A DNA stretch of 64,000 bases from contig OY811990.1 of the NCBI GenBank assembly GCA_963681505.1, forward strand, positions 3,983,165-4,047,164. The letters run 5' to 3'. Positions 4,318 through 27,129 of this stretch are shown here, one piece after another. The position numbers and the translations under genes were made by a program. Position 1 is the first letter of the stretch. Each line of letters starts with the position of its first letter. This DNA is from Eunapius fragilis (Eukaryota; Porifera; Demospongiae; Spongillida; Spongillidae). The notes under the pieces were generated by a model that saw only the letters and a list, made by a program, of their open reading frames with translations, did not search any database and was not told the DNA's origin.

Positions 4318-4535
4318 TATGAAGAATCAGAGGCAATGTTGGTTGCCATGGTGATGGTAGGTCTAGGAGGAGGGGGGAGGGTGGAGATGGTGCAGTTGGA
4401 TGCCATGATGCAGTCTCTGTTATACTCCACCATGTTGGGGGGACAGAAGTATCCCTGTATCCCTGTAAGCATTGTTGGCACATGTTGGTCGGCAGACTGG
4501 GCCACACTCAGAGTAGAACTTCCCTTCAGGGCACA
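4318..4535 (-). pseudogene. TIL-domain exon, first type (unit A)
   Basis: The minus-strand exon begins after a pyrimidine-rich acceptor (TCTCCTCCAG) at 4535 and reads CPEGKFYSECGPVCRPTC, the hallmark of trypsin-inhibitor-like (TIL) domains. The middle part carrying GCPTQCVQGC in units F and G is partly deleted here, so the domain is incomplete. Confidence 0.55.
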
Positions 4536-12115: not shown

Positions 12116-12312
12116 GTCCAGGTGAGACCAAGGCACACAGTACAATAGTGTGCCTACTTGGTATATAATTTCTAGACCTGCTTACTCAGGTACTAAATAA
12201 TTTTACCTACCATCATATGAGATTAACTTGATACAGAATTCTTGGGTTGAATGGCTTATAATTATTTGAAACGTGCACAATCCCAGCTATGGACCAGTTA
12301 CTGGTCCTGGGT

Positions 12313-15300
12313 CACGGCTGTTTCATTGCATTGAAATTTGGACAACAGGTCCGCGCCCACTATGAATGTTAAGTACCTAGCAACAGGGCTCATTACTTCC
12401 ATAGCAACGACTATAGGTTTAAGAAGGCTTTAAATTTTTGTACATGAAGATACCGTCGGTGTTTTTATCTAAAGCGCAACCTACATATACAGTAAGGACT
12501 TCCCCTACCGACTATGCTAATTCCAAGCAATGATACATTGGCAAACACGTGCCACACTGCCGATAGGTCACGGGGTCTAAATGGGTGAGGTCGACGGTGC
12601 TCATGTTTTCTAAGAATAGCTCTTATATATTTCGACAAGATACGACTTGAACAAAGTAAAGGGTTTGATCTTGCGTTTCAAATAGTTTTTACGTTGCTAC
12701 GCGACTTCGTCTGTCCATACTCGTCGGTTTAAAATGGCGCCATTTTGGGTTCTCTAATGATATTGTACGTATATAGGTACATGATAACTAATGGTGTCTG
12801 TAGATATATATGATGATGACGGTGAATAGAGAGTTATGTATTCTTCTTTCTTCTTTTTTCAGGTGGTGGTACAGCAGCGGACAAGTGTGGTGAAATGTTA
12901 AGGTAATGCTCTTGCAAAATGCTTTTAAGCTGAGCAATAGGATTTCTGACTCCAGAGTAGGTGCGTTTTAACGTATTGAATTTTGCGTGTATAGATTCAG
13001 CACCTTGCTCCCCCATTAGACCACAGCCAGCTTGGTATGTTGTTGCCCATTCCAACATGTGGTCTTCAAGGATATGCATCTTGAGTGTTCTTCCTACTCC
13101 ACTGAAGTATTTGTCGAATAGACAAAAGAAGTTCTTGATGGCCTGATCTATTTGGAATGAAAAGAATGAAAAGAATAGCTCACAAGAATATACTACATGA
13201 ACAGGTATGCACACACCGAGTTTTTGTATGGTACTTGTGTTGTGTACTGTGCTGTCATACAGAGAATGGCATTCAGAGAATTTCAGCATAATGGTGCTGA
13301 ATTTCATATAAATGTCATTTGCATCTGCTTTTAACTCAGATACATGCTCTGTAGCCTTTAATACACAACTGCAAAGAACTTCCACATTGGCAGGCTATAA
13401 ATTCAATACAAATTAAGTTGATGGGCATTTTCATATGGCACAAAAAATACCTTGAGAATCTTGTGTACATGATTTCCTACAAAAATTCCTCCGAAATACC
13501 GTTGACGGCACACACCAAGTGATTTTAAACAAGATTGAAGGCTCTTGATACAAGGTCCATCATCTAGGTTAAAGGACGTTTCGATGGTTTCTTGTAAAAC
13601 TTTGATTCTTTCTTCCTACATGAGAGGGTGATATTCAGAATTAGTATGAAATGGTAAATCAAGTGTATCACAGTATATACCTGTTTTTTAACATTGCCAT
13701 GACATTTCTCAGAAAGATCAAGGAGACCTGCAGTGATTGGTGTGCTGCTGCCAGCAACTAGTGCACTGTATGTTGCTAGCTGTTGCAATGTGGCCTCCTC
13801 TTGGTGCAGCTGCTCCAGTTCAACGTTAGCATCATTGATCTCTCTCAGTGCCGCTGAGTACACATCATATTGTGTTTTGCTGATTGGAGAGGATTGCCAG
13901 TACATGGCAAGCATAAGATCAAGTGTATGGCAGGATTCTTCAAAAAGGGAAAAGAGTTTCTGAAAGATCCCTTGTGTTATGTGCAAACCAGGTAAGCAAA
14001 CCTACATGATATAGGGTGTTAAATTATTCATCTATACTATCATGCATATAACCTGAGATATAGGAATGTTAAAAAATGGATCCTGTATGCAGTTGTTGTA
14101 CTCCTTTGCACGCTTAACATCCCCTCCATCATCCATAAACCTTTGGTGGTCAAGCAGAATAGTGTCTAGAGAGCGAGAGGAGCATGGACCTTTTCGTGTA
14201 GAAGGCTTTCGTAGCTCATCAAGGGTAATATGACATAGTAAACATGGCTGTTTACCTGCATGTACATGTATGAAATGTCAAACTGTTCAATGGTTATGAA
14301 TGGTTACACACTGGATTTATACCTGATGCACCTGATAGTCCATATATTTGACTGAGAAAGTCAAGATCACCACTGAGAAACACTTTCATGGAGTACACCC
14401 TTAATTAAAAAATATCATTGTACACTACAGTATGCTTGTTCAAAAGTTCTGGATCAACTTACTTCCATTTCATGGTGCCGATATGAGTCACCTCTCCTCT
14501 AAACCGGTCAAGTGCCACATGTAGGTTTGTGACTGTGTCATCTGCCTCAAAGCAGGAAAACACACATGTGTTGTGAACCGAGTTAGGTGTTTTCGTGTTA
14601 AGTTCATCGTAAACATGCCACCCCCCTTGTCACCACCAAGTTTAATCCAAACTTCATCTTTTGGTATGATTCCATGCCACACAAGTTTATCCTCCCTGGA
14701 TGAAAGTCATGTATATTATTAGCAGACATACTCACATTTTTTAGACTGACCGTTCATTCTGTTCTAGAAGTTGTATAATCTTCTGGGTTAGGCTAGGCGT
14801 GTAGCCATATGCTGCACCACGAAGTTCTTCTCCCCTAGCAGGCAGTTTGAAGGAGAAGGGGGCCAACTCCACCATGAGATTGTCTCCAATACACTCATGT
14901 GCAAGAACACGCTCCTTTCTTTCGCTGCCAATGTATACTCCTGCTTGTTTTAACCATCTGTAAATGTGCTTATTATTCATACCATGGAGTATCATGTGCA
15001 CCCATGTCATGTACCTACGGAGGATTCTTAGTCTGTACCATGGTATGGCAAGCATTGATTTTATTGCAAGCCCTTGCATTGGTAGCATTTCCATTTGTAC
15101 CCCAGCATTGTGAAGTAATTCCTGTTTCTTTTCCACACTCAGTACCCTGATCTCATCCCCAAGTAGGATATCAGAGCCCTTGGAATTGACCCCTATGATA
15201 CTTCGCATGTTTTGAACCTCAAGTATACGTCTTTTTCGGGTACGTTGGCTCAGCTGATCAGGGGGTAATTTCGGTGATGTAATGTGAGCTAGTTTCAGAG

Positions 15301-16723
15301 GCTGTTAGTAGGGGTAAGCATATGAATGAATCATAACATTATTCACTTTCTTTACTTACAGTTCCACCAGTATTTATATGTATGACGTTCTCCTTGGAAG
15401 CATCAAGCATCTTGTGTACTACCTTGCTGACAAGTTGCATTTCTTGTCTGGTTACATCAGTACAACAATGTGAGTCATATTCGATAGTTTTGAAGCTTCT
15501 ATCACATGACCTGCAACACACCATTACATCATGCAGGAGTAGCTGTACCATTCTTGAAGCTGGTTTAACATTCTTGGTGTCCAGTGGTGTTGTAGAATGA
15601 CAGCAGGGACAGAATGTGGCAGTCAAATGGATCCACTCAATTAAGCATGTGGCACATACAAGCCTGTCACAGGGGAGTTGTATTGGCTGTCCTAGCACTT
15701 CAAGACAAATAGGACACATCAACTCATCTATAGCAGATAGCATCTGTGTAGTGGCCAATGGTGGTTGGTTTGGATTTTGTATGATTTTTGGTGGTGCTAT
15801 AGCCTTAATGTGTTGTACAATATTAGCTGGACTACTGCCTCGTGCTTCAGGTCTCCACCACCGAGCCACGTAAAATGGCTCATTCCTGTTACAACCCTAT
15901 GGTGAGAGAGGAAGGAATTGTGAACGAATTTTTTTTGTATTGCACACTACCTTGCAGGTACTGATGGTATGGCTGCACCAGTCATATGGCTCTAGCAGAC
16001 ATTTGTAAGGTGTTTTGCTTCGGGATGCAGCTATTACACGCTTCATCGTCACGTAACACTTGTTGCAGAACTTAGGGGGGTGGATCTCAGGACTGTCTTT
16101 TTGTGTATCGATGTGAAAGCTCTTCATGAAACTCCACGCACATGTACATAACAGAGTGCCGCTTTTTTGCCATTGTTGCTTGTTTAGGGAGTTTACACGG
16201 CTTGCAACCACATAAACGGCACAAATCATCCAATTGACACTTGTGTTGAGGTTCCATTGAGACTATCGATTGTTCGCGGCGTGTAAATTATTCATGATTT
16301 TGTAAGAGATTTTACGCCTAGTTTGAAAACGCGTAGCACGAAACTGAATTCATTAAACGACTTACCGATCCTTTCCCTTTATTCTCTGCGTTTACCAGCC
16401 GATTTAATAAGAGCAATTTTTTACAGTTTGAGATCAAACACGTGACAGTTTTAGTTTCGATGAGAAGAGCCTTTATGCGTGGCCACGAGTGTATCGTTGA
16501 AAATATAGTATTTGATTGCGCAAATAGTCCTATGATATTTCAGATGTTTACTCAACCTAAATTTATTGTTGGTTTTCACATTGGTACAAAAGGCCACGTA
16601 CAGGAAACCTCCAAAGTTAAGTGTCAGTTAATGAGCTCTTTGGCGACCATTTTTTAATATATACCGTAATTCGATCATTACGATCTAATTTCAAAACCTA
16701 ATGTCACGTACGGAACAGCCGTG
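12313..16723 (-). mobile_element. RAG1-like DNA transposon with TIRs and 4-bp TSD
   Basis: The left end reads CACGGCTGTTTC (12313-12324) and the right end, reverse complemented, CACGGCTGTTCC: 11 of 12 match and both start with CAC. GGGT flanks both ends (12309-12312 and 16724-16727), and the empty site in other units reads 'ctgggtgttgat', so GGGT is a 4-base target duplication. Length is 4411 bp. Inside is a ten-exon minus-strand gene with RAG1-like domains (12834-16257). A CAC terminus with a 4-base TSD resembles Chapaev-type elements and the RAG1 N-terminal-bearing N-RAG-TP described in molluscs; RAG-type Transib/ProtoRAG elements make 5-base TSDs. Only the terminal 12 bases match, so ends are short or eroded. 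No RAG2-like frame is seen. Confidence 0.75.
12834..16257 (-). pseudogene. RAG1-like protein gene, ten exons, two 1-base frameshifts
   Basis: Exons (minus): 16257-15951, 15896-15360, 15301-14751, 14695-14463, 14399-14323, 14255-14053, 14001-13681, 13615-13451, 13394-13217, 13147-12834, all with GT-AG junctions and matching phases; about 960 codons, near RAG1 length. Exon 1 has LCRLCG and IHPPKFCNKCY, then W-x2-H and CKGC completed across intron 1, as in the RAG1 N-terminal zinc region. Exon 2 has a RING (CPICLEVL...CPCC) followed by IHINTGG, like RAG1 VHINKGG. Exon 4 has KLGGDKGG, exon 6 CLLC, exon 7 LPGLHITQGIF, exon 10 GEQGAESIHAKF, in the order of the RAG1 core D600, zinc CxxC, D708 and E962 regions. 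The D708 position seems not to be Asp. Frames break once in exon 1 (near 16165, by an A run) and once in exon 4 (near 14587). These could be decay or sequencing errors. Confidence 0.75.
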
Positions 16724-16734
16724 GGGTGTTGATA

Positions 16735-16958: not shown

Positions 16959-19856
16959 CAGTGCCGGATTAAGGGTCACTGGGGCCCCTGGACCAGTTAT
17001 TTTGAAAGGCCCCCCCCCCCCCCTCCCTTTTTTGAGTTTCAATCGTTGCGCATAGAATTAAATATACTGAATTAAGTGATTAGTACTATTGTATATAAGA
17101 AGTACAAGTTGTGCAAAAAGGATTTACAATTTTGCAACTTTTCGAGACTTTGCAGCCACAAATTATTCAATAATGTCTTCATATTCAATCTGCTGTAGCA
17201 CCTCAGACTCCAGTGATAGCCAGCTAAGTCTGTCTTGATGCATGCACGTTCTTTTCTCATTTTTGATAAGCTTAGCTTGGAGAACGCTCTCTCTCCTGAT
17301 GCATTGGTTGCCATCAAACTCAAGTATATTTGATAAGCAATTTCAACGTTTGGAAAGGTTGATAGGAGACAATGGTTAAAAATATAATACTGTACAAATT
17401 AATAGCTGTACATGTGAATATACATGTCGGCATTTCCTTGTCTGAATTCAAACGTTCGATAAAACAGGAAAAGTGTTTGAACTCTTGTGGAAAGCTGAGC
17501 TCCGAGTCATTAGGATAGCATTGCTGTAAGTTTTGAGCCGCTTTTTCTATTTCGTCTGCTCCCATATGCATGCTTAGAAATTCTGTAATAAATCCGAAGT
17601 GCTTGTGCACCACATCATATGCCTGTGTGCGTAACATCAAGGCCTGTGACAGTTTATCCAATATTGGAAGGAACACTTCGATGCGAAACTTATCATGCTG
17701 ATGAAGCACCAATCCGTTAGATTCATCACCGAATTGCGTTTTTGGTTTCCTTATTCTTTTTTCGGCATCCTTATATTTAGCACTTGGATCCTTTGGTTTC
17801 GCACACATCTCAATAGCATCAAAGTTCCCTCTAAGTTCTGACACGAAGTCCTGGAGTGACTGTAGCAGTTTGACAGCTGTTCCTAGCTCAATTTCAGCAC
17901 TTTGAAGAGCCGTGCTAACTCTGTTGAACCTTTCCAAAATGATGTTCCAAAATACAGCCATGAAAACAGTGTCCATGTAAGATAATGAAATATGAAGGCC
18001 GTTAGCTTCTTGTTGGGTATCTGCTCGCTGTTCAGGATCTTGCACAATATGTAGAAGAGCAGCTCGAAAATTATCGTATCCTTCTGACAGTGCTTAAGTA
18101 GCTTCAGCACGAGCTGACCATCGTGTATCGGACAAACACTTGAGCACTCTTTTTTCCCCTTCAAGATATTGTACAAGTATCCCCCATCTGCTTGTACTAG
18201 CACTAAAAAAGGTGAACAGTTTCTGAACCAAGCTGAAGAAAATTGTTGCTTCCACACAAGATTCAACAAACACCTATTAAATTTAGTGAATGTGCAGCAC
18301 AAGGCACGTACAATGCCAACGGATTTATATCACATAGTTTAGCTTGCATACCATTATATTTCCCAGACATGTTTGCTGAATTATCGTAGGTCTGTCCGCG
18401 CATGTACATAATATCTATACTATGTTTTTCAAGAAACTGCACTGCTGTAGTGGCAAGGAATTCACCTGTATGGCTCTGGATAGGTAAAAAAAGAAGAAAA
18501 CGCTCTTGTATGTTGTGCGACTGCTTATTTACATATCGTACTATAACCGTAAGCTGGTGTACATGACATAGGTCTGGAGTTGAGTCAACAGAAAGTGAAA
18601 ATACTTTCAAGTACACCGAGGTAGATTCCATTGTGTGGTGAGTTAAGGATTTCATTATCTCCTCGAAACGGCAAACCACGTTCTGATAAAAATTTAATGA
18701 CAGCAACCACACGTTTTAGAATATCATGCCAGAATCTCTTCTCAGCTTCTAATTGCTTCCCAATTTCACAATCTATTCTTCCGCACACTTGTCTCTGACT
18801 TGAGTATGCGACTGCTTGAGCGCTATGGTGTGCAGCGCTATTTTCATGATCAATCAATCTACTGGATGCATGCATGCTTCCAATCACTGAATCCAGTACC
18901 TGAAACTGTGTTGTAATGTGCTTGTCACCAAACAGAACACATATAAAGCAGAAAATACTTCCAGGCCTGTGGAAGGGCCGAAGGGGAGTAAACAATCCAT
19001 TCTCGAGCAATTTCTTCACCAGAAAGATGTTTTCGAAAGAGATGATGTTTAGAGAATTTTCTGCTTTGGTCCTTAAACTGTCGCTCGGAAGCTGCAAAAT
19101 CGCCATCATATTTCTGGCACTCTTTAGGTCCTTTCATGCTCCAGTATTCACGCACCTCTTTTGAAATGTTCTTCCACAAAGCAACATCGCCACTATATTC
19201 TGGCAACAAGGAGCTACTGGATTTGGAGCTACTGCATTCGGAACTACTGCATTTTTCAATTGGATAACCAGGATAAGCATTGTCTTTATGTCCGCTCTCC
19301 GCGTGAGAGCCAAGCGAGAGAGCTTCAGCCTCCAAAGGAATCATGCCTTCTGGATTGGAACTATTAAGCTCATTGCAAGCACGATCTCCACTCTGGTCCA
19401 CTGTTGTAATGGCAGAGCTTTCAGACATGTTTGTGGGTGCTACGATGTTGATAAAACCCAGGTCATCCAGCTTGCGAAGCTTAGTAATTGATTTCTCCTG
19501 CTGTTTCTTCAACTTTCGTTTTGCAGCGCCACTCATCTGTACCCTTCCTGGTCCATCACTGCTTTTTTTTCGAGGTCGAGCTGCTACTATTCATAATAAC
19601 GCACACTCAGAGTTTCCTATTACCTGCCGTAACCTGCGTTACGGACGGAGTTGATTATCAAAGCAGCGGGGAGGGGTTATGCATAATGCTTTTACCGATA
19701 ATTATTTTGTGGTTTCTTTAGTGTACAGTGCGTCTTTGGGAAGGCGTGGGGGAGGGTCTGACCAAACACCGCATGCATACTTGCCCGTTTGGTGCCCCCT
19801 AAGGTTGTGGGCCCCTGGACTGTAGCCCCACTTGCCCAATGGATAATCCGGCACTG
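16959..19856 (-). mobile_element. hAT transposon inserted in TRIM C exon 1
   Basis: Ends are inverted: CAGTGCCGGATTA at 16959 and its complement (TAATCCGGCACTG) ending at 19856. The 8-base target duplication TGTGCTGT is at 16951-16958 and 19857-19864, as expected for hAT elements. Length 2898 bp. It contains a broken minus-strand transposase. Confidence 0.9.
17072..19536 (-). pseudogene. hAT transposase (ZMYM1/DUF4371-like), multiply frameshifted
   Basis: Starts at 19536 (MSGAAKRKLKKQQ). A TTF/BED-type N-terminal zinc region follows, with EYWSMKGP and the REWIVYSPS segment. A DUF4371-like part has FLSERGLPFRGDNE, then DNSANMSGKYNG and AAHSLNL of the hAT core. The C-terminal dimerisation region reads SLMATNASGERAFSKLSL before the end near 17072. 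At least four frame changes (near 18925, 18650, 18270 and 17320) and an in-frame stop near 18095 separate these pieces. Domain order matches hAT transposases related to ZMYM1. It is inactive as read here. Confidence 0.8.
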
Positions 19857-24081: not shown

Positions 24082-25795
24082 GAGTGGTACAGCCATCACC
24101 ATGGGGGAGGGAGGGGTCCATAGGGTGAGTGGTACAGCCATCACCATGGGGGAGGGAGGGGTCCATAGGGTGAGTGGTACAGCCATCACCATGGGGGAGG
24201 GAGGGGTCCATAGGGTGAGTGGTACAGCCATCACCATGGGGGAGGGAGGGGTCCATAGGGTGAGTGGTACAGCCATCACCATGGGGGAGGGAGGGGTCCA
24301 TAGGGTGAGTGGTACAGCCATCACCATGTGGGAGGGAGGGGTCCATAGGGTGAGTGGTACAGCCATCACCATGGGGGGGAGGGAGGGGTCCATAAGGTGA
24401 GTGGTACAGTCATCACCATGGGGGAGGGAGGTGTCCATAGGGTGAGTGGTACAGCCATCACCATGGGGGAGGGAGGGGTCCATAGGGTGAGTGGTACAGC
24501 CATCACCATGAGGGAGGGAGGGGTCCATAGGGTGAGTGGTACAGCCATCACCATGGGGGAGGGAGGGGTCCATAGGGTGAGTGGTACAGCCATCACCATG
24601 GGGGGGGAGGGGTCCATAGGGTGAGTGGTACAACCATCACCATGGGGGAGGGAGGGGTCCATAGGGTGAGCGGTACAGCCATCACCATGAGGGAGGGAGG
24701 AGTCCATAAGGTGAGTGGTACAGTCATCACCATGGGGGGAGGGAGGAGTCCATAAGGTGAGTGGTACAGTCATCACCATGGGGGGAGGGAGGGGTCCATA
24801 GGGTGAGTGGTACAGCCATCACCATTGGGGGAGAGAGGGGTCCATAGGGTGAGTGGTACAGCCATCACCATGGGGGAGGGAGGGGTCTGTAGGTGAGTGG
24901 TATAGCCATCACCATGGGGGAGGGAGGGGTCCATAGGGTGAGTGGTACAGCCATCACCATGGGGGAGGGAGGGGTCCATAGGGTGAGTGGTACAGCCATC
25001 ACCATGGGGGAGGGAGGGGTCCATAGGGTGAGTGGTATAGCCATCACCATGGGGGAGGGAGGGGTCCATAGGGTGAGTGGTACAGCCATCACCATGGGGG
25101 AGGGAGGGGTCCATAGGGTGAGTGGTACAGCCATCACCATGGGGGAGGGAGGGGTCCATAGGGTGAGTGGTACAGCCATCACCATGGGGGAGGGAGGGGT
25201 CCATAGGGTGAGTGGTACAGCCATCACCATGGGGGAGGGAGGGATCTGTAGGTGAGTGGTATAGCCATCACCATGGGGGAGGGAGGGGTCCATAGGGTGA
25301 GTGGTACAGCCATCACCATGGGGGAGGGAGGGGTCCATAGGGTGAGTGGTACAGCCATCACCATGGGGGAGGGAGGGGTCCATAGGGTGAGTGGTACAGC
25401 CATCACCATGGGGGAGGGAGGGGTCCATAGGGTGAGTGGTACAGCCATCACCATGGGGGAGGGAGGGATCTGTAGGTGAGTGGTATAGCCATCACCATGG
25501 GGGAGGGAGGGGTCCATAGGGTGAGTGGTACAGCCATCACCATGGGGGAGGGAGGGGTCCATAGGGTGAGTGGTACAGCCATCACCATGGGGGAGGGAGG
25601 GGTCCATAGGGTGAGTGGTACAGCCATCACCATGAGGGAGGGAGGGGTCCATAGGGCGAGTGGTACAGTCATCACCATGGGGGAGGGAGGGGTCCATAGG
25701 GTGAGTGGTACAGCCATCACCATGAGGGAGGGAGGGGTACATAGGGTGAGTGGTACAGCCATCACCATGGGGGGGAGGAGGGGTCCGTAGGGTAC
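24082..25795. repeat. 45-bp minisatellite, about 38 copies
   Basis: The unit begins GTGGTACAGCCATCACCATG and continues with a G-rich half ending GTCCATAGGGTGA. The period is exactly 45 in most copies, so three frames on each strand stay open for long stretches, giving repetitive 15-residue pseudo-proteins. Variant copies ending 'tctgtaggtgagtggtatag' near 24885, 25240 and 25465 show higher-order duplication of blocks. Copy number is approximate. Confidence 0.9.
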
Positions 25796-25799
25796 CATG

Positions 25800-25950
25800 G
25801 CTTCTCTCTACGCTAACGCTCAGGTAAGAAACACAGACATCATTATCAATGGTTGCAGTAAATGAGGAAGTGATGGTCCTGCTGACCTGGATGGTCTGAT
25901 TGGTCCACAAAGTGCCAGTCACCCTCACTGCTCTCCACACCACTACCCAT
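25800..25950 (-). pseudogene. Possible second Ig-like exon, only in unit C
   Basis: The minus-strand frame reads GTLWTNQTIQVSRTITSSF, then TIDNDVCVSYLSVSV before running into the minisatellite. The strand pattern ending in C-x-SYLSVSV resembles the second half of an Ig-like domain. It sits between two expanded arrays and is not seen in other units. Confidence 0.3.
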
Positions 25951-25954
25951 GGGG

Positions 25955-27095
25955 ACATGAGGGGGCTAGCCAATGATACATGAGGGGGCTAGCCAATGAT
26001 ACATGAGGGGGCTAGCCAATGATACATGAGGGGGCTAGCCAATGATAAATGAGGGGGCTAGCCAATGATACATGAGGGGGGCTAGCCAATGATACATGAG
26101 GGGGTTCGCCAATGAAACATGAGGGGCTTCGCCAATGAAACATGAGGGGGCTTCGCCAATGATACATGAGGGGGCTAGCCAATGATACATGAGGGGGCTA
26201 GCCAATGATGCATGAGGGGACTAGCCAATGATACATGAGGGGGCTAACCAATGATACATGAGGGGTGCTAGCCAATGATACATGAGGGGACTAGCCAATG
26301 ATACATGCCAATGATACATGAGGGGGCTAACCAATGATACATGAGGGGTCTAGCCAATGATACATAAGGGGGCTTCGCCAATGATACATGAGGGGGCTAG
26401 CCAATGATACATGAGGGGGCTAGCCAATGATGCATGAGGGGACTAGCCAATGATACATGAGGGGGCTAACCAATGATACATGAGGGGTGCTAGCCAATGA
26501 TACATGAGGGGACTAGCCAATGATACATGCCAATGATACATGAGGGGGCTAACCAATGATACATGAGGGGTCTAGCCAATGATACATAAGGGGGCTAGCC
26601 AATGATACATGAGGGGGCTAACCAATGATACATGAGGGGGCTAGCCAATGATACATGAGGGGGCTAGCCAATGATACATGAGGGGACTAGCCAATGATAC
26701 ATGCCAATGATACATGAGGGGGCTAGCCAATGATACATGAGGGGGCTAGCCAATGATACATGAGGGGGCTAGCCAATGATACATGAGGGGGGTAGCTAAT
26801 GATACATGAGGGGGCTAGCCAATGATACAGGAGGGGGCTAGCCAATGATATATGAGGGGACTAGCCAATGATACATGAGGGGGCTAGTCAATGATACATG
26901 AGGGGGCTAGCCAATGATACATGAGGGGGCTAGCCAATGATACATGAGGGGACTAGCCAATGATACATGAGGGGGCTAGTCAATGATACATGAGGGGGCT
27001 AGTCAATGATATATGAGGGGGCTAGCTAATGATACATGAGGGGACTAGCCAATGATCCATGAGGGGGCTAGCCAATGATACATGAGGGGGCTAGC
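25955..27095. repeat. 23-bp minisatellite, about 50 copies
   Basis: Unit 'catgagggggctagccaatg' plus 'ata'. Variants (ttcgcc, ctaacc, agtcaa) and truncated units ('atacatgccaatgatacatg') mark internal block duplications, e.g. around 26150-26350 and 26390-26590. No interspersed unique spacers. Seeds of one to three units occur at 324-350, 3838-3905 and 10085-10145. Confidence 0.9.
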
Positions 27096-27129
27096 TGAGG
27101 CATAAGGATATGCAGTCACTGGTACTGTT

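Follow-up and report, generated by a model that had tools for sequence, protein, structure and literature searches.

Occupied and empty sites of the transposon

The window analysed here, a 64,000-nucleotide stretch of Eunapius fragilis contig OY811990.1, contains a 4,411-bp DNA transposon at positions 12313–16723, with CAC/GTG ends and a ten-exon gene on its minus strand. Two features set the subject of this work: the predicted transposase, which has a RAG1-type N-terminus in front of a Chapaev-type core, and the transposon ends, which are built in two parts with unequal spacers. The termini at 12313 and 16723 read CACGGCTGTTTC...GGAACAGCCGTG. Their inverted repeats are CACGGCTGTTTC at the gene's 3′ end (12313–12324, plus strand) and CACGGCTGTTCC at its 5′ end (16712–16723, minus strand), and a GGGT target-site duplication, to which no strand applies, stands on either side (12309–12312 and 16724–16727). 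The transposon was inserted into one of the window's repeated units. In four sister units, at about 6.1, 37.1, 45.2 and 53.2 kb, the site is uninterrupted: the sequence there is ACTGGTCACTGGGTGTTGATACATT, and GGGT occurs once. The CAC termini, the 4-base duplication and the empty site in sister units had been proposed in a first-pass annotation made from the sequence, and all three are borne out. Part of the empty-site stretch is gone from the sister unit at 28.0 kb, and about 90 bp near the insertion, present in the five other units, are missing from the one that bears the element. Much of the window (1–64000) consists of such units, which are about 89–94% alike in a self-comparison and form blocks starting near 0.35, 6.6, 20.0, 28.4, 37.5, 45.6 and 53.6 kb, in both respects among the matches listed.

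Across the genome (219 Mb, 24 contigs) 86 pieces match the element. Four further copies match over 4,409–4,411 of the 4,411 bases at 95–99% identity, and 20 related stretches were taken, 13 with both ends (at most two mismatches) and seven without one end. A 4-bp duplication was found in 13/13 of the two-ended stretches and, with the four full copies added, in 17/17, representing 15 distinct sites. No fifth base of the duplication matches in these complete copies except in L002, which lies in a G tract, so that its duplication length is ambiguous; for L005, a full copy minus two end bases, no duplication was found. Fifteen of the 17 complete copies have 5′-CAC...GTG-3′ ends, and the other two, L053 and L054, which share one site, start with CAT at one end. 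Five further families (F1, F2, F3, C11_29 and C2_162) also show 4-bp duplications, which do not form an independent test of duplication length because their ends were chosen with the duplication as a criterion. The two C20 copies L053 and L054 are one insertion found twice with the same flanks, and L040 and L041 (C9, 8.77 and 6.25 Mb) likewise share their flanks, in opposite orientation; both pairs are apparently segmental duplications.

Gene, protein domains and surroundings

The sister copy L002 has ten exons and nine GT-AG introns of 51–69 bp, and its 968 codons are free of stops, in the same minus-strand orientation as the window gene. The same ten exons and their GT-AG borders were confirmed in the window copy. 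The ten-exon gene and the RAG1-like protein length of the first-pass annotation both hold. The coordinates given here are those of the L002 model with borders checked on the window copy, and all exons lie on the minus strand. Exon 1 (15951–16257) carries the RAG1 N-terminal zinc motifs, similar to the Pfam domain RAG1_imp_bd, and exon 2 (15360–15896) the RING finger, the next zinc finger and an IHINTGG motif. Exon 3 (14751–15301) comes after the INTGG motif and is co-linear with the nonamer-binding region of RAG1, with a similarity that is not significant. The DUF1280 core is met in exon 4 (14463–14695), which holds a putative first catalytic Asp (GGDKGGG); a putative second Asp (SGD) lies in exon 5 (14323–14399) and a C-x2-C zinc motif in exon 6 (14053–14255). 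Exons 7 (13681–14001), 8 (13451–13615) and 9 (13217–13394) are followed by exon 10 (12834–13147), with H-x4-H and a putative catalytic Glu (GEQGAES).

The window copy is not expected to make protein because it has two frame-breaking deletions, which the first-pass annotation had overlooked while describing the gene structure correctly. Eleven base pairs are missing from exon 1 that are present in 6/6 other copies covering the place, and ten from exon 4 that are present in 7/7. Frame shifts or stops also occur in L004, L005 and L007. Intact copies exist elsewhere in the genome: L002 and L003 are open over 968 codons, and all 968 residues of L003 align with L002 with no shift or stop, 958 of them identical. 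Eight diverged copies, 45–60% identical to L002, gave spliced models with 7–9 introns, compared with nine in L002, and L013, L034 and L035 could be modelled in part only. Third codon positions differ most in 11/11 pairwise comparisons, and strongly so between families (0.30/0.21/0.56 at the three positions for L002–L031 and 0.44/0.30/0.66 for L002–L061), which argues that the protein has been kept by selection over the long run. The young copies speak against this: their codon signal is slight, and more of their changes alter an amino acid than are silent, for example 12 against 3 in L002–L004.

The RAG1-type zinc region, the RING and the next zinc finger are all present in the family. Searched against the PDB, a single family sequence already matched RAG1 at 2.3e-9 (residues 161–330) and 3.5e-7 (residues 42–287). 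Profile A1 was made from 7 of the 13 modelled copies, six of them 40–62% identical to the first; L003, L060, L062, L038, L034 and L035 were omitted because they were near-duplicates or poorly modelled, and the L013 sequence was trimmed where its model left the element. A1 matches RAG1 102–376 at E=4.1e-20, well past the RING (the best RING of another protein reaches 2.9e-7); for 21wb, a structure of the RAG1 N-terminus, the value is 1.5e-8. RAG1_imp_bd is found in 5/7 family members (best E=5.7e-8), with the L002 protein alone falling under the Pfam cut-off at 17.7 vs 23.3 bits. These profile matches establish homology to the RAG1 N-terminus that is significant beyond the RING, as the RAG1-type motifs noted at first pass had implied. 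That annotation had also named two outcomes that would count against it, RAG1 similarity confined to the RING and copies with other ends or duplication lengths; the profile match and the 17/17 duplication length point the other way on both. Genome-wide there are at least 131 DUF1280 matches and at least 76 RAG1_imp_bd matches, and an imp_bd match lies 0.5–3 kb upstream, on the same strand, of at least 30 of the 131, compared with a mean of 0.06 in shifted controls.

The core is of another kind. DUF1280 (PF06918) was found in the L002 protein at E=1e-12 and in 7/7 family members. This domain has been assigned to Chapaev and placed beside RAG1 in clade II (PMC3985635), and the Chapaev hallmarks are 3–4-bp duplications and CAC/GTG ends (PMC4079192). 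The Chapaev-like 4-base boundaries proposed at first pass are confirmed and the core agrees with them. Between the second Asp and the Glu, Chapaev cores carry C(2)C and H(3-4)H, a motif pair that they have in common with Transib, EnSpm, Mirage and RAG1 (PMC12730594). In our family D-x18-C-x2-C falls in invariant columns, as do D708/C727/C730 in RAG1, an arrangement seen in 13/20,000 column shuffles, and H-x4-H-x20-E is found in 7/10 copies that reach it, close to H937-x4-H942-x19-E962 of RAG1.

Two points limit this agreement. The H-x4-H-x-E pattern is not invariant, the first His being absent from L031, L038 and L062, all of them broken copies, and in sequence the similarity of the core to RAG1 is not significant. 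Compared by hhalign, ten family cores and RAG1 639–1006 scored 18.5, where the reversed sequence gave 18.0 and 30 shuffles up to 24.3. The first-pass claim of core-like segments in RAG1 order thus holds for the order of the motifs and fails for sequence similarity. Against RAG1 389–520 the score was 13.4, with 100 shuffles reaching up to 16.6, and hmmsearch with profile A3, covering the region after INTGG, did not find RAG1, so that co-linearity alone would suggest a nonamer-binding-like domain there. The predicted structure of the A3 region (96 residues) has a mean pLDDT of 52.5. The RAG1 core model PF12940 gave no match over its cut-off when the genome was searched exon by exon. A lone match under the cut-off lies at C20:1601751–1601978 (E=0.0066).

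The DUF1280 core together with the 4-bp duplications makes this very probably a cut-and-paste transposon of the Chapaev group, in which a RAG1-type N-terminus (a zinc 'Chapa' domain and a RING) precedes a predicted RNase-H-like DDE core and whose ends are arranged as proposed below. That it should instead belong directly to the RAG1 lineage, as a RAGL (RAG1-like) or Transib transposon, is most improbable. The RAG1-type N-terminus, the CAC ends and the close spacing of D-x18-C-x2-C and, in 7/10 copies, of H-x4-H-x20-E would suit such an origin. Membership was rejected on the duplications, 4 bp in 17/17 copies where RAG and Transib make 5 bp (PMC7204232), on the DUF1280 identity of the core and on the absence of a PF12940 match over the cut-off. 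What stands of the label 'RAG1-like transposon' is thus the N-terminus, the length and the ends, and what falls is the assignment to RAG1 transposons.

Eleven copies of 2.44–2.68 kb (L039–L049) keep both ends and the exon 1–2 stretch and have lost the core. They could be taken for independent elements that make an N-terminal protein, of the type of N-RAG-TP, an Aplysia transposon with only RAG1-N-like sequence (PMC8355894), and the retention of just this stretch fits that idea. By eye, no open frame of at least 70 codons spans the N-terminal stretch in any of the 11, which hold fragments only, and their ends and duplication length are those of the full element, as expected of internally deleted derivatives. 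We consider independent elements very unlikely; the core-less copies look like non-autonomous derivatives, and by analogy N-RAG-TP may have arisen in the same manner, by loss of a core.

Elsewhere in the window, tandem-repeat arrays at 24082–25793 and 25942–27107 appear as stacked self-matches of 86–97% identity. Adjoining the element on the minus strand, at 17072–18093, are open frames of 257 and 108 codons, which we take to have the look of a hAT-type transposase.

Two-part ends with unequal spacers

Each end consists of an outer CACGGCTGTT, a gap and an inner TGGACA/TGGAAA motif. At one end of the element the gap is one helical turn longer than at the other. In the window copy the sub-terminal motif at the gene's 5′ end, on the short spacer, is GTGACATTAGG (16697–16707, minus strand; bases 17–27 from the end), and at the 3′ end, on the long spacer, TGGACAACAGG (12339–12349, plus strand), starting at base 27. 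Its family has GACA at bases 19 and 29, and the core-less copy L043 has GACAATAGGT at both. In F2, F3, C11_29 and C2_162 the inner motif, respectively TGGAAACTTAGT, TGGAAACTAGG, TGGACA and TGGACA-TAG, has its first base at position 17 of the gene's 5′ end and at position 28 of the 3′ end. Inspection of the end windows of ten families had yielded two more complete end pairs and a second F1 copy, with no convincing pair in seven. The one-turn asymmetry is present in most families examined in this genome. When offsets were scanned in six families, +10/+11 came out best in four, C11_29 on a three-way tie, and a count of four was reached in 1/300 shuffles.

We then counted the pattern CACGGCTGTT-N(0-30)-TGGAMA genome-wide, which was derived from the families examined, yet depends less on the choice of family. 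It has 385 matches, compared with two for a reversed-pattern control. The gaps cluster sharply: 149 are of 6 bases and 208 of 16–17, which by subtraction leaves 28 at 28 other gap lengths. The 5′ ends of the window family fall outside this count.

Pairing was tested over the genome up to C5:5.81 Mb, on 66 short and 100 long ends. Thirty-three adjacent convergent pairs lie 1–6 kb apart and 33/33 join one short with one long end, whereas label shuffles gave a mean of 15.9 mixed pairs and a maximum of 28 in 5,000. The variable base of TGGAMA, compared by eye, agrees at both ends in 20/20 pairs whose strings were printed (17 TGGACA, 3 TGGAAA).

Several observations weigh against a general one-turn rule. 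The offset in the window family is 10 rather than 11, and the F1 copies L065 and L084 have the inner motif only at the 3′ end, at base 28, their 5′ end being an exception to the asymmetry. Both of these families failed the offset scan, and one of the four passes was tied; the window copy failed because a different offset, with a TTGAAATT match, gave the higher score. By the pattern, 100/166 ends have no partner. To judge from the printed strings, the 33 pairs come from about three families and are hence not independent, so descent contributes to the 33/33 and could by itself produce it. The test took only short and long ends, and the convergent pair C1:11335506/11338473, in which a far end with a gap of 21 faces a short end, lies outside it.

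The ends were first read as sharing TTGAAATT at offset 11, but in the opposite direction; at least 8 bases were shared in 118/3,000 shuffles. This reading was dropped when TGGAMA proved to be the consistent motif in other families. In the window copy TTGAAATT still outscores the TGGACA match.

In the mechanism that we infer, the intact sister copies, and not the window copy, would make a catalytically active transposase. It would recognise each end through the outer CACGGCTGTT and the inner TGGACA/TGGAAA-like motif, which lies one helical turn nearer at the gene's 5′ end than at the 3′ end. A productive complex would have to pair a short-spacer with a long-spacer end, after which the element would be excised and reinserted with a 4-bp stagger. 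The RING may have a ubiquitin-ligase role, if any.

Relation to Chapaev, RAG and P elements

Chapaev elements with Chapa and RING domains were already known, and ours is a further member. Two Chapaev subgroups have been described in which a RING finger comes after a 'Chapa' domain that the RAG1 N-terminus also has (Kapitonov and Koonin 2015, PMC4411706), and by their description, on which the comparison rests, they share with our element the CAC/GTG ends, 4-bp duplications, DUF1280 core and RAG1-like zinc region with RING. The novelty that the first-pass annotation claimed for a RAG1 N-terminus joined to Chapaev boundaries was thus largely anticipated. The passages of that paper on these elements do not mention a spacer asymmetry. 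Nor was a report of it for Chapaev found in the literature passages searched, among which Panchin and Moroz 2008, Kapitonov and Jurka 2005 and the Chapaev Repbase Reports were not included. The Aplysia N-RAG-TP shares with our element a transposon carrying RAG1-N-terminal-like sequence and differs in that the full element here has a core, its core-less copies looking like broken derivatives.

Likeness to the RAG system lies in the N-terminus, the CAC ends, the order of catalytic and zinc residues and two-part ends with two spacer lengths. RAG1 and RAGL elements such as ProtoRAG differ in their 5-bp duplication, compared with 4 bp here, and the sequence of our core does not reveal it as RAG1. 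A second gene did not come to notice, and no search aimed at RAG2 was made. The recombination signal sequence (RSS) consists of the heptamer CACAGTG and the nonamer ACAAAAACC on 12/23 spacers (PMC8289069). Like the RSS, our ends begin with CAC and have two spacer lengths, which differ by 11 bp (by 10 in the window family, with the F1 5′ end lacking the motif). This makes the likeness to RSS heptamers noted at first pass stronger than was claimed. The nonamer ACAAAAACC is not matched, the inner motif being TGGACA- or TGGAAA-like. If the outer part is taken as a 7-bp heptamer and the inner motif as beginning at its ACA, a boundary that was chosen after the fact, spacers of 12 and 23 result, or of 12 and 22 for the window family. 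P elements make an 8-bp duplication, and their termini and transposase are unlike those of the Chapaev element. They share with it an outer repeat and an inner binding site, on spacers about one turn apart (9 and 21 bp), which have been called reminiscent of 12/23 (PMC7776569).

What the asymmetry means depends on how it arose. It might be a frozen accident, one ancestral 11-bp insertion without function that all families inherited. All families are related by descent and the 33 pairs represent about three of them, as this would require. We think it unlikely: spacer sequences vary widely between families while their lengths stay at 6 and 16–17, an argument for function, and in 20/20 pairs both ends carry the same base at the variable position of the inner motif. 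If the spacing is functional, it may still be convergent, favoured by asymmetric transpososomes in general and silent on the origin of the 12/23 rule. The case for this is about evenly balanced. The P element spacers show a similar difference, the inner motif is not the RSS nonamer, and in most Transib families the two ends are symmetric and those of ProtoRAG do not resemble 12/23 RSSs (PMC8289069). Nothing decisive stands on the other side, where the RAG1-type N-terminus and the CAC start held in common leave room for common descent. Under common descent, the RAG1 N-terminal region and short/long pairing would both have been present in an ancestor of Chapaev, Transib and RAG, with the symmetric Transib ends a later loss, and a 12/23-like geometry would be older than RAG; we regard this as a tentative proposal and on balance rather doubtful.

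These results touch on where the RAG1 N-terminal region came from, on the source of the 12/23 rule and on the origin of adaptive immunity. The E. fragilis genome offers near-identical, apparently recent copies that join a RAG1-type N-terminus to a Chapaev core, together with 357 related ends at two spacings that differ by one turn. With these copies and ends it can be tested directly whether a Chapaev-group transposase, like RAG, needs a short end paired with a long one.

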